Shown here in pieces: positions 32,864 through 36,555 of a stretch of 43,333 nucleotides of DNA. The DNA is from Dehalococcoidia bacterium. Its GTDB lineage: Bacteria; Chloroflexota; Dehalococcoidia; Tepidiformales; Tepidiformaceae. The notes below the pieces were generated by a model, which worked only from the letters and a program-made list of their open reading frames with translations, searched no databases and was not told the DNA's origin. The stretch covers positions 1 to 43,333 of the forward strand of contig JAJDUR010000116.1 of assembly GCA_022826585.1 (NCBI GenBank). The letters are read 5' to 3'. Every line of letters begins with the position of its first letter. The first letter of the stretch is position 1. The translations under genes were made by a program, and so were the position numbers.

Positions 32864-33343
32864 GTGAGCGAACCGTTCGTCCTGCGCCCGATGATGGAGG
32901 CCGACCTCGACACGGTGGAGGCGATCGAGGAGGCATCGGACCTGCCCCGGCGCTCGCCGGAAGCGCGACGCGAGGAGCTGGGTGACGAGCGCACGCGGGG
33001 GGTGGTGCTGGAGGCGGGGGGCGCGGTCGTGGGGGTGGGGAGCCTCTGGCTGGCGCCGGATGCGGCGCACATCACATCGCTGGCGGTGGCGGGGGAGGCG
33101 CGGCGGCGGGGTCACGGGCGGCGGCTGGTAACGGCACTGGTGGCGCTGGCGGGGTCGCTGGGGCTGGAGGCGGTCACGCTGGAGGTGCGCGCCTCGAACG
33201 GGGCGGCGCGGGCGCTCTACGCGGGGTGCGGGTTCGAGGAGGTGGGGGAGCGGCGCCGCTACTACGCCGACGGCGAGGACGCGGTCATCATGACGCTCGC
33301 GCTCGATGATGACGGGCGGGCGGGTAGCGCGGCTCGTGGGTAG
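32864..33343 (+). CDS. rimI: ribosomal-protein-alanine N-acetyltransferase (RimI-like)
   Basis: This 159-residue GNAT enzyme has the RimI features. ITSLAVAGEARRRGHGRRLV (V-x-P/A-x-x-R-x-x-G-x-G loop, about 63-82) comes first. VTLEVRASNGAARALYAGCGFEEVG follows, then the RimI-type end RRRYYADGEDAVIMTL. RimI acetylates the N-terminal alanine of ribosomal protein S18. Usual neighbours TsaB, TsaE and TsaD are not here, so another N-terminal or small-molecule substrate is possible. The GTG start is supported by TACGAT 6 nt upstream. A small hypothetical gene follows 10 nt after its TAG stop. Confidence 0.8.
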   Translation: MSEPFVLRPMMEADLDTVEAIEEASDLPRRSPEARREELGDERTRGVVLEAGGAVVGVGSLWLAPDAAHITSLAVAGEARRRGHGRRLVTALVALAGSLGLEAVTLEVRASNGAARALYAGCGFEEVGERRRYYADGEDAVIMTLALDDDGRAGSAARG

Positions 33344-33346
33344 AAT
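33341..33346 (+). promoter_or_regulatory. leaderless-type -10 (TAGAAT) for the small hypothetical gene
   Basis: TAGAAT begins with the rimI stop codon and ends seven bases before the ATG at 33354. No ribosome site fits between. Confidence 0.45.
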
Positions 33347-33353
33347 CCCGCGC

Positions 33354-33665
33354 ATGCCCGCGACCGACGCCGACCGGACCCGCATCGAGGCGCAGATCGC
33401 GCTGATCCCGCGCCTGCGCGGGACGGGCCCGAACCCGTTCGAGTACGACCAGTGGGATGCGCGCACGGTCGAGGTGCTGACGGCGGCATTCGGGGCGGAG
33501 TCGGACGAGGTGGCGCGCTACCAGCGCGACGTGGGGGAAGCGGGCCGGGTGGCGGGCGTGCGCGGCAACGCCGGCAACATGACGCTCAACATCCACGGCA
33601 AGTGGGGCATCCTGGAGCGGTTGGAGCGGGCGGAGTCGCTGCTGCGGGAGCTGGCGGCGGGGTAG
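33354..33665 (+). CDS. hypothetical protein
   Basis: This 103-residue protein is soluble and mostly helical. DADRTRIEAQIALIPRLRG comes first. A variable middle holds FGAESDEVARYQRDVGEAGRVAG, and the end is WGILERLERAESLLRELAAG. I do not recognise a family. The ATG at 33354 is preferred because family-like sequence begins there and a TAGAAT box lies 7 nt upstream. The frame also runs open through the end of rimI. It converges on the repeat-protein regulator, with stops 4 bp apart. Confidence 0.6.
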   Translation: MPATDADRTRIEAQIALIPRLRGTGPNPFEYDQWDARTVEVLTAAFGAESDEVARYQRDVGEAGRVAGVRGNAGNMTLNIHGKWGILERLERAESLLRELAAG

Positions 33666-33669
33666 GGGC

Positions 33670-36456
33670 TCAGCGGAGCACCGCGGGCACATCCGGACCG
33701 CCCCAACAGGCGATCTCGCCCGACTCGCGGATCGCGCAGGTGTGCCAGATGCCCGCACGCACCGTGACGTACTCCCCCGCGGGTGCATCGGCCTGCCCCC
33801 ACTCGTTGTTCCCCCAGCAGGTGATCTCGCCCGACTCGCGGATCGCGCATGCATGGCCGATTCCCAGATGCAACGCTCGGAACTTGCCGAGCGGCGGTTC
33901 CGTCAGGTCGCTTTCCTGCCTGAGTCCTCCGAACCAAAGGCTGGTTCCGCTCCCCCAGCAGTCGATCTCCCCCGATTCGCGTATCGCGCACGTGTAGTGG
34001 GCACCAGCGTCCAGCAGCCTGTACCTGCCCTGAGGGGCGTCGGTTTCGCCGTAGCGGTTGCCCCCCCAGCAAGCGATCTGACCCGACTCGCGTATCGCGC
34101 AGGTGTGGAAGGCGCCGACGCTGACCGAGCGGTACTGGCCGGGTGGCGCCTCAATCTGGCCATGGTCGATGTCGCCTTCGTTGTAGACGTACTGGGAACA
34201 GTCAATGTCGTTGCAGTAGTACGCGTTCAGGTCTCCCCAGCAATCGATCTCCCCGGACTCCCGCACCGCACAGGCGTGGTAGCTTTCGGCGCTCAGCGAC
34301 TGGTACCTCCCACTGGGGGGATCCGGCAGGTCGGACGAGTCGTTCCAGCAGACGATCTCCTCCGACTCGTCGATGGCGCAGGAGCCACTGAGCGACCGGT
34401 ACCGCCCCGGAGGAGGCTCCGACCCGCGGTAGAGTGAGCCCCCCCAGCAAGCGACCTCGCCGGAATCTCGTATCGCACAGACTCCGGCGCTGCCCAGCGA
34501 GCGGTAGGTGCCCGATGGCGGGCTCACCCAAGCAGTCCCCCAGTCTGCGGTGTACCCCCAACAGGTCACGCCTCCAGACTCCTCGAGAATTGCGCACGTA
34601 TGCCACTTCGTCGCAACCACCGAGCTGTAGGTGCCCGCAGGCGCATCTGTCTGGCCCTGGCTGTTCCCCCCCCAGCACTCGAGCTGTCCCGTGTCCCGCA
34701 ATGCACATTTGTGCTCGTACCCAAGGCTCACGGAGCGGAACGTGCCTGGCGGTACGTCCTGGTCCTGATCCTGGTCGTAGCTGTCACGCCAGCACACCAG
34801 CTCGCCAGACTCCCGCACAGCGCAAGTGGAGCCCCAGCCCACGCCTACCGAGCGGAACTTGCCCTGAGGCACGTTGAACTGCCCGTAGTCGCCCACCCAG
34901 CAGTTGATCTCACCCGACTCGCGCAGAGCGCAAGCGTGACGGTCGCCCACGCTCAGCGAGCGGTACGGCCCGGAGGGAGCATCCCCCGCGAACTGATCGC
35001 CCCAACACACGACTTCACCGGAGTCCTGGATGGCGCAGGCGTGGTGTGCACCAGCGCTGACATCAAGGTACGTACCCGGTGGCGCCCCGGCCGGCCCCCT
35101 GTAGTCATACCCCCAGCAATGGACCTCGCCCGACTCGCGCAGGGCGCAGGTATCCCTATTGCCCGTGCTCAGGGACCGGAATTTTCCCGGAGGAGCCTCC
35201 GTCTCGCCCCAGCCGCTGTCGCGGCCCCAGCAGTCGATTTCCCCCGACTCCCGCAGCGCGCACGCGAGCGTATCGCCCGTGCTCACAGCGCGGTACTTCC
35301 CGGAAGGCGGGTCCGTCATGCCGAATTCGTTGTCTCCCCAGCAGTCGATTTCGCCCGACTCCCGCACCCCACACGCGTAGCTGAAGCCCACGCCTACGGA
35401 GCGGAAAGGGCCCGGGGGCGGAGCTTCCCGGCTTGCGCCCCAGCAGTCGATCTCCCCCGACTCGCGTGTCGCGCACGCGTAGACACTCGCAACGCTTACC
35501 GACCGGTACACGCCCTCCGGGGGTTCGGTCCGGCCGTGGGAGTCGTTCCCCCAGCACACAAGCTCACCGGACTCGCGGATCGCACAGGCGAGTTCCCCGC
35601 TCACACTCAGCGCGTGATAGGTTCCCGCCGGGACCTCCGCCAGTCCCCACTGGTTCTTGCCCCAGCAGTCGATCTCCCCCGACTCCCGTATCCCGCAGGT
35701 GAAGTCGTCGCCCGCCTGAAGCGAGCGGAAGGGGCCCGGCGGCACCTCGGTGCGTTGGTAGCCATGTCCCCAGCACGTGAGTTCCCCCGACTCTCGTAGA
35801 GCGCACGCGAAGTCGCTCCCCACGCCAATCGCGCGGTACGTTCCCGGAGGCGCATCCAGCTCACCGTAGTACTGATCTCCGCCTCCGCAGACGATCTCAC
35901 CCGACTCCCGTATCCCGCAGACAAAGGACCACTGGCCGTCGGCGGTGCGATAGCGCCCCGGGGGCAGGGGTGACTCGTTCACCGCGACGCTCCAGCAGAT
36001 CAGCGCGCCAGACGCCCGCACGGCGCACATTCCCTCCCCGGCCCGGAACAACTGCACGGCGGGGTCGCGCTCGTCGGCGAGCGGGGCGGGCAAGGTGGGC
36101 TCAGGCTCCTCGTCGCCGCCGCCGAGGAGGAGGACCAGGACCACGACCAGGACGACCGCCGCCAGCAGCGCGGAGACGCCCGCTGCGAGACGTCCCAGGG
36201 AGAACAGCGAAGCGGGAATGGACAGACGGAACAGACGGCGTCGCCCCGGCTGCCAGGCGGCGAGGGCGTGGCGATCGGGGAGGTCGAGTTTCCCGAGCAT
36301 GTTCGAGACGTGGTACTTGACGGCGTCGGGACTGACGCCGAGGCGAACGGCGATCTCGGCGTTGGTGCCGCCCTCCCGCAGCTCGTCGAGGACGCGCTGC
36401 TCGGCTGGGGTGAGGAGGTCGGGGTGGGGCGGGCGGCCACGCCCACGTCGCGTCAT
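33670..36456 (-). CDS. membrane-anchored LuxR-type HTH regulator with 21 RCC1-like repeats
   Basis: This 928-residue protein has three parts. Residues 14-72 form a LuxR/GerE helix-turn-helix: LLTPAEQRVLDELREGGTNAEIAVRLGVSPDAVKYHVSNML (read in part). Residues about 88-112 are one strong transmembrane helix, with arginines before it and an acidic DEEPEP stretch after it. This gives a cytoplasmic HTH and an exported C-terminus. From residue 144 there are 21 repeats of about 37 residues, each with C-A-[IVL]-R-E-S-G-E-[IVL]-x-C-W-G. They resemble RCC1_2 beta-propeller blades, with a possible disulfide per blade. There is no sensor kinase, so it may act as a one-component membrane regulator. Its ATG has TAGGCT 6 nt upstream. 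A lipoprotein with the same repeats is encoded just upstream. Confidence 0.85.
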   Translation of the reverse strand: MTRRGRGRPPHPDLLTPAEQRVLDELREGGTNAEIAVRLGVSPDAVKYHVSNMLGKLDLPDRHALAAWQPGRRRLFRLSIPASLFSLGRLAAGVSALLAAVVLVVVLVLLLGGGDEEPEPTLPAPLADERDPAVQLFRAGEGMCAVRASGALICWSVAVNESPLPPGRYRTADGQWSFVCGIRESGEIVCGGGDQYYGELDAPPGTYRAIGVGSDFACALRESGELTCWGHGYQRTEVPPGPFRSLQAGDDFTCGIRESGEIDCWGKNQWGLAEVPAGTYHALSVSGELACAIRESGELVCWGNDSHGRTEPPEGVYRSVSVASVYACATRESGEIDCWGASREAPPPGPFRSVGVGFSYACGVRESGEIDCWGDNEFGMTDPPSGKYRAVSTGDTLACALRESGEIDCWGRDSGWGETEAPPGKFRSLSTGNRDTCALRESGEVHCWGYDYRGPAGAPPGTYLDVSAGAHHACAIQDSGEVVCWGDQFAGDAPSGPYRSLSVGDRHACALRESGEINCWVGDYGQFNVPQGKFRSVGVGWGSTCAVRESGELVCWRDSYDQDQDQDVPPGTFRSVSLGYEHKCALRDTGQLECWGGNSQGQTDAPAGTYSSVVATKWHTCAILEESGGVTCWGYTADWGTAWVSPPSGTYRSLGSAGVCAIRDSGEVACWGGSLYRGSEPPPGRYRSLSGSCAIDESEEIVCWNDSSDLPDPPSGRYQSLSAESYHACAVRESGEIDCWGDLNAYYCNDIDCSQYVYNEGDIDHGQIEAPPGQYRSVSVGAFHTCAIRESGQIACWGGNRYGETDAPQGRYRLLDAGAHYTCAIRESGEIDCWGSGTSLWFGGLRQESDLTEPPLGKFRALHLGIGHACAIRESGEITCWGNNEWGQADAPAGEYVTVRAGIWHTCAIRESGEIACWGGPDVPAVLR
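33690..36027 (-). repeat. 21 tandem RCC1-like coding repeats (about 111 bp period)
   Basis: The repeats code for the exported part of the HTH regulator. The conserved unit is C-x9-C-W-G, then about 24 variable residues ending in PPG-x-[YF]-R-[SA]-[VL]-[SG]-x-G. Unit 17 is enlarged by about 20 residues with two extra cysteines (34165-34235). Units 6, 15 and 16 are short. Divergence between units is high, so the array is old and not a recent slippage product. Confidence 0.85.
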
Positions 36457-36468: not shown

Positions 36469-36555
36469 GAGGGGTACGCCGCGATTTTCCCTACCCGAGG
36501 TCAGGACGGGGGACCGGTTGCTACGAGAGCCGACGGCGCAGGGGGCGGGGCTCAC

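Follow-up and report, generated by a model that had tools for sequence, protein, structure and literature searches.

The window, a stretch of 43,333 nucleotides from a Dehalococcoidia bacterium, contains a gene (P0001) that joins a LuxR-type helix-turn-helix (HTH), one membrane helix and a long array of RCC1 repeats in a single protein. Upstream of it lies a second RCC1 gene, P0002; the features of both are collected in Table 1. The P0001 frame opens with ATG and is uninterrupted, encoding one protein of 928 residues. A sequence-only reading of the same stretch had placed an N-terminal LuxR/GerE-type HTH at residues 14-72, a single transmembrane helix at about 88-112 and some 785 residues of repeats behind it, and had called for a profile search, a survey of genomes for the same domain order and a topology prediction. 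The profile search recovered both expected Pfam families in P0001, GerE at residues 14-67 (E = 2.1e-11) and RCC1_2 (E = 3.2e-94). The GerE score of 43.7 bits exceeds the Pfam cut-off of 23.5, which places the HTH in the LuxR/NarL superfamily. The top 19-residue hydrophobic window begins at residue 94, and the full-length AlphaFold model, confident in the HTH, places a helix at 94-111; that model was poor as a whole (pLDDT 66.5) and was drawn on just for the HTH, the helix and the fold class. A repeat HMM found 21 RCC1 repeats, with starts spanning residues 135-898, and all three parts of the proposed layout were thereby confirmed. In Pfam searches of P0001, no receiver or autoinducer domain and no Trans_reg_C winged helix was found at E <= 0.1, and there was no kinase match.

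Table 1. Features of the P0001-P0002 locus (positions in the window)
Feature	Position	Strand	Basis or remark
P0001, receptor gene	33670..36456	-	928 aa; GerE HTH, one helix, 21 RCC1 repeats
GerE (LuxR-type) HTH	36256..36417	-	residues 14-67; Pfam and model helices 17-27, 32-39, 43-57, 62-67
Recognition helix	36286..36330	-	residues 43-57; model; aligned to NarL; residue-base co-variation
Residue 48 (Tyr) in recognition helix	36313-36315	-	co-varies with operator base 6
Membrane helix	36121..36177	-	residues 94-112; hydrophobic window and AlphaFold model
Repeats 1-7, first propeller (predicted)	35287..36075	-	residues 128-390; AlphaFold
Repeats 8-14, second propeller (putative)	34504..35289	-	boundaries from repeat count; low confidence in whole model
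Repeats 15-21, third propeller (putative)	33700..34503	-	boundaries from repeat count; low confidence in whole model
-10 element TAGGCT of P0001	36463..36468	-	6 nt upstream of ATG
Candidate operator TCGGGTAGGGAAAAT of P0001	36484..36498	-	shared promoter layout
P0002, RCC1 lipoprotein-type gene upstream of P0001	36556..38493	-	645 aa; lipobox LAAC, Cys 24
-10 element TAGGGT of P0002	38500..38505	-	6 nt upstream of GTG
Operator-like GGATGGCGTAA ahead of P0002	38524..38534	-	layout match

P0001 has 44 cysteines, none of them in residues 1-113, and each of the 21 repeats carries a cysteine pair 10-11 residues apart. Modelled alone, repeats 1-7 gave seven three-stranded blades (AlphaFold, pLDDT 89.2, pTM 0.88) and are predicted to close a seven-bladed RCC1 propeller. 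The closest solved folds were the ectodomains of the plant receptors CR4/ACR4 (query TM 0.78 for the top match), followed by BLIP-II, and the sequence profile agreed with the fold (7a0j, E = 2.3e-22; BLIP-II, E = 3.8e-21). The repeat count suggests that two further propellers follow. When the same HMM was applied to the 12 fused proteins of the family described below, P0001 had 21 repeats, L063, L068, L080, L084 and L093 had 14 each, L062 and L073 had 7 each, and L053 and L061 had 15 each; in L057 12 were detected, with one gap that fits two more, and in L066 there were eight, followed by an unreadable stretch. Exact multiples of seven occur in eight of the 12. Whole-propeller duplication was considered and rejected, as six proteins gave no consistent similarity peak at a distance of 7 or 14, L063 alone being highest at 7.

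An orthologue of P0001 lies beside the same gyrA in the named genome SB0662_bin_5 (L061), where the P0002-type lipoprotein gene is absent and the receptor has 15 repeats rather than 21. The presence of P0002 and the number of repeats therefore vary among close relatives, and the fusion is constant. A 119-residue gene with no Pfam match (33306-33665) neighbours the receptor in L061 too, with 109 residues there. RCC1 frames also adjoin RCC1 receptors, as P0002 does, at L073:7362-10709 (21 repeat cores) and L084:8261-9184 (7). Elsewhere in the genome of the window, at G000:C69:27.2-28.9 kb (L059), a stop codon divides an RCC1 gene, signal-like at its start, so that it reads as two frames.

A family with one HTH-helix unit and many outer parts

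The genome of the window (G000, 2.7 Mb) gave ten GerE matches, and eight of the ten proteins consist of an N-terminal HTH, a helix and a large outer part; the remaining two read as PAS-type and receiver-type. The outer part is of RCC1 type in the window protein, C101 and C111 (in C111 together with LRR); C84 and C85 have a peptidase-like unit containing HExxH. Both C118 proteins carry units related to the latter by BLAST cluster, and C12 gave a weak SH3 match, under its cut-off.

Searching named genomes with a profile built on the first 130 residues of seven paralogues (A1) gave 72 loci. Of these loci, 44 were examined and 36 kept, which together with the eight own-genome proteins gave a set of 44 (A2). 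The eight that were excluded (L086, L090, L099-L103 and L130) were incomplete or lacked a helix, so that the possession of a helix in this set is partly a matter of selection. Pfam GerE matched all 44 proteins and RCC1_2 matched 12. Other outer domains, among the 25 of 39 families listed, were LRR (3), carboxypeptidase-regulatory (3), PD40 (3), fn3 (2), Kelch (1) and NHL/teneurin (1); among ten proteins scanned singly, L054 and L069 had no match besides HTH-type models. On a tree of the HTH-helix unit, 17 outer-part labels, assigned by hand and partly from BLAST clusters, require 19 changes, and the outer parts have therefore been exchanged; RCC1 accounts for five changes, at least two of them forced by supported branches. 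At E <= 1e-20 the family profile had matches in 39 of the 393 class genomes and in four of 301 drawn from the phylum, three of these four (own genome included) belonging to the class. The HTH-helix family was thus found almost wholly in one class.

The survey for the same domain order found HTH, helix and RCC1 repeats in L061 and ten other proteins, and because the syntenic orthologue and these ten share the order, an assembly artefact is excluded as the source of the fusion. Two observations that the sequence-only reading had named as fatal to it were ruled out within the set examined: homologues in which HTH and repeats are never fused, given that 12 of 44 carry the combination, and a frameshift between the two parts, given the uninterrupted frame and the existence of fused relatives.

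The topology prediction was made from sequence signs, namely charge bias and cysteine distribution. In 40 of the 44 family proteins the 25 residues before the helix contain more Lys and Arg than the 25 residues after it, and in 43 of 44 the part before the helix is without cysteine. Because of this positive-inside bias, the lack of cysteine before the helix and the cysteine pairs in the 21 repeats of P0001, the repeats are predicted to lie outside. A cytoplasmic HTH with external repeats is supported in this way, and the membrane layout is supported by the model also.

A shared promoter and a candidate operator

Most family genes have a common layout upstream, in which an operator near TCGGGTRRKGWAA is followed after 17-18 nt by a -10 element resembling TANNNT and, soon after, by the start codon. 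The distance from the -10 to the start codon is 6-7 nt in those A2 members with an operator found and mostly 6-11 nt in distant rows, and the P0001 transcript would be leaderless. At P0002 the order is GGATGGCGTAA, 18 nt, TAGGGT, 6 nt and GTG, and by sequence this neighbouring promoter is related to those of the receptors.

The exact pattern TCGGGKRRNGWAAHY occurs at seven sites in the 2.7 Mb genome, against one for a control pattern; five of the seven lie 27-28 nt ahead of receptor start codons and the other two are without the layout. One exact match without the gene layout (L164, G000:C75:29723) lies in surroundings that we take to resemble 16S rRNA, and it is therefore probably a chance match. 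With one mismatch allowed there were 31 sites (control, 17), of which 30 were looked at. Three more of them had the layout: the gene behind the site encodes a lipoprotein of substrate-binding type on C30, an exported protein of peptidase-like kind on C103 and a membrane protein with a zinc ribbon on C125. The sites on C25 and C52 had a -10-like sequence and no long frame. The C103 gene (L233, minus strand) is an exported-looking frame of >1200 residues, peptidase-like with HExxH, with the shared promoter layout, and its product is kin to the outer part of the C84 receptor. A relative of the C125 gene in L076 has the same promoter layout.

A combined operator and -10 score of at least 14 was found for 37 of 40 receptor frames, versus 12 of 538 other frames. 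Five of these 12 read as receptors or as other frames that overlap one (L061, L077, L089, L095 and L055b) and six as exported or membrane genes (P0002, L076, L079, L093, L096 and L097); the remaining one is L070. Across the 393 genomes of the class, the narrower pattern TCGGGTRRGGWAAHY occurred at 49 sites (control, 35). The 39 genomes with the family held 22 of them (control, 3), spread over 12 genomes, and the 354 without it held 27 (control, 32), in 26 genomes, all by hand tally. Fourteen of the 22 sites stand ahead of receptor genes, as judged by coordinates or reading, one of them 53 nt off (G169); the remaining eight comprise one in front of a receptor-like gene that lacks the HTH (L224) and seven elsewhere. 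L224 (G097:C6, from 276) starts with MERNRGGR, continues directly with a helix and outer part, and has kept the operator and -10. The operator was absent from the own promoters of the divergent receptors L055a, L096 and L097. Exported-looking neighbours at L096 (near 7423) and L097 (near 3478) carry GGTTAGTGTAA in the usual layout.

A perfect dyad was rejected for the operator, its symmetry being partial, at about 41% complementarity at the best centre (a figure without a shuffle control). A resemblance to the CsgD box was considered and set aside as evidence, a literature search for the string having found nothing.

Co-variation between recognition helix and operator

The relation between HTH and operator was examined in 69 rows, made up of A2, 40 further regions chosen from the class-wide profile matches and four other loci, once near-duplicates, identical at 66 or more of 70 positions, had been removed. 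Site picking masked operator columns 5-7 and allowed 14-20 nt to the -10; the 62 rows with an operator score of at least 5.5 and Tyr, Phe, Thr or Ser at residue 48 were counted. Thr or Ser was accompanied by A at operator base 6 in 17 of 18 rows, and Tyr or Phe by a base other than A in 43 of 44 (Fisher p = 4e-13, which ignores relatedness). Residue 48 predicts base 6 in 60 of the 62, the exceptions being L257 and L268. In the counted rows added after this rule had been set down (L240-L279), it holds for four of five with Thr or Ser and 21 of 22 with Tyr or Phe. The rows do not include the other C118 receptor (L055b), whose operator GGAGGGCGAAA, with Tyr, agrees with the rule. Within the own genome, C56, C84 and C85 combine Tyr with AG or GG, and C101 and C111 combine Thr with GA. 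P0001 belongs to the Tyr class, and GG at columns 5-6 of the P0002 site fits with that.

A mutual-information test (63 rows, 60 shuffles per pair, relatedness ignored) ranked residue 48 with base 6 as the strongest of 368 variable residue-base pairs (z = 25.8), followed in order by 45 with 5, 46 with 8, 44 with 3, 44 with 5 and 52 with 6. All six top pairs involve residues 44-52, within the recognition helix (43-57 in the model), and the seventh involves residue 21, outside it. The recognition helix of P0001 was aligned with NarL, and its residue 48 falls at what is probably the position of NarL Val189, presumably a base contact. On a tree built without the recognition helix each trait changes seven times; independent switches are few, with five pairs on supported branches, of which four are concordant, none discordant and one unchanged (sign test p = 0.125). 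Read most simply, each receptor would bind its own promoter.

Candidate mechanism and its alternatives

We propose, at a probability of roughly 0.7, that P0001 is a single-pass membrane one-component regulator, with the HTH inside and three propellers outside, which would bind its own promoter and alter transcription in response to an outside signal. From the architecture, the family, the operator and the co-variation evident in the sequences we infer direct binding, activation, ligand sensing and signal transfer. In its own promoter the HTH would bind positions 36484-36498, where the -35 element would stand; further probable targets are the P0002 promoter and those of a few genes whose products are exported or lie in the membrane. 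An external ligand would bind the propellers and change the pairing, position or cleavage of P0001, and the altered protein would change transcription of the receptor and its companion genes, the signal crossing the membrane by helix pairing or cleavage. Because the operator replaces the -35 element, activation would be likelier than repression. As regards the sequence-only reading, its layout stands, the inward HTH and outward repeats agree with the sequence signs, and the DNA-binding end of such receptors seems to be in use, judging by the operator co-variation.

The location of the candidate operator, at the -35 position and 17-18 nt ahead of the -10, and its occurrence ahead of a few non-receptor genes for exported or membrane proteins would also suit a surface-protein regulon under an alternative sigma factor or a soluble regulator, in which the receptors would be members only and their HTHs would act elsewhere. 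However, the operator letters follow the recognition helix of the downstream gene, both within the genome and across the set, and as such tracking would not be expected from one external factor, this explanation is improbable. The outer part could instead be an adhesin, binding protein or enzyme whose abundance is set by feedback through its own HTH, with no ligand-induced signalling. HTH-less RCC1 proteins adjoin P0001 and occur elsewhere in the genome, and peptidase-like and substrate-binding-like genes have the same promoter layout, as might then be expected; yet the HTH-helix unit has been retained with many outer parts, which suits interchangeable sensors better and, though not decisive, makes this rather unlikely.

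Regulated proteolysis, in which an outside signal triggers cutting and the HTH is released, would agree with the single helix and the long Pro/Thr-rich linkers of many members; ToxR/CadC-type regulators, however, work uncut, and release by cutting is doubtful. Cytoplasmic repeats, like those of eukaryotic RCC1, would have repeat kinship alone in their favour, and are scarcely credible given the positive-inside bias (40 of 44), the absence of cysteine before the helix (43 of 44), the cysteine pair in each of 21 repeats and the occurrence of the same repeats after the lipoprotein-type signal LAAC in P0002.

The proposed regulator, with its HTH inside and propellers outside, can be compared with several known systems. 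ToxR and CadC have an N-terminal DNA-binding domain of the OmpR-type winged-helix kind, one helix and an outer domain. By sequence and model only, P0001 is like them in its inner DNA-binding end, single helix and outer domain, but differs in its GerE/LuxR-type HTH, its repeat propellers and its family of many exchanged outer parts; because the HTH differs, it lies outside the ToxR/CadC family, though it would work like them. LuxR-type HTHs normally stand at the C-terminus, behind a receiver or ligand domain. The HTH of P0001 aligns with NarL and others, and the NCBIfam EpsA and CsgD models match all 44 members at E <= 1e-3, in P0001 (the one member for which positions were seen) over the HTH only and far under the model cut-offs. 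In contrast to NarL, LuxR and CsgD, the P0001 HTH is N-terminal, is followed by a membrane helix and has no receiver or autoinducer domain that was found.

CRINKLY4 receptor kinases have an extracellular propeller, one helix, a kinase and a Cys-rich domain. ACR4 and PpCR4 are the closest solved proteins to the P0001 propeller in both sequence and fold (7a0j, 7a0k), and RCC1 propellers have a precedent as receptor ectodomains in these plant kinases; P0001 differs in its HTH and its three propellers, two of them putative. BLIP-II is a bacterial RCC1-type propeller (1jtd, 3qhy), but is a free secreted inhibitor with no helix and no HTH, whereas P0001 has both. A literature search found no description of the P0001 layout, which is weak evidence because even broad wording gave no returns.

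What is new by sequence is a common promoter with a candidate operator whose letters co-vary with the recognition helix of the HTH. If the proposal is right, P0001 and its relatives would offer a one-protein route from the cell outside to DNA, with a freely swapped sensor, and a bacterial repertoire of surface receptors coupled directly to gene control, including a bacterial counterpart of the CRINKLY4-type ectodomain. Specificity, regulon and topology would be testable together, given a protein-DNA code that can be read and an operator already located. More tentatively, interchangeable receptors of the Dehalococcoidia may funnel many signals into a few shared regulons. Some of the signals might come from a sponge host, since genomes with SB and IRC names are presumably of sponge origin. 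The receptors would have one HTH-helix unit in common, with a code that assigns operator classes (residue 48 with base 6, 45 with 5, 44 with 3) and outer domains that resemble eukaryotic ectodomains, among them CRINKLY4-like propellers, LRR, Kelch, NHL/teneurin and fibronectin III.
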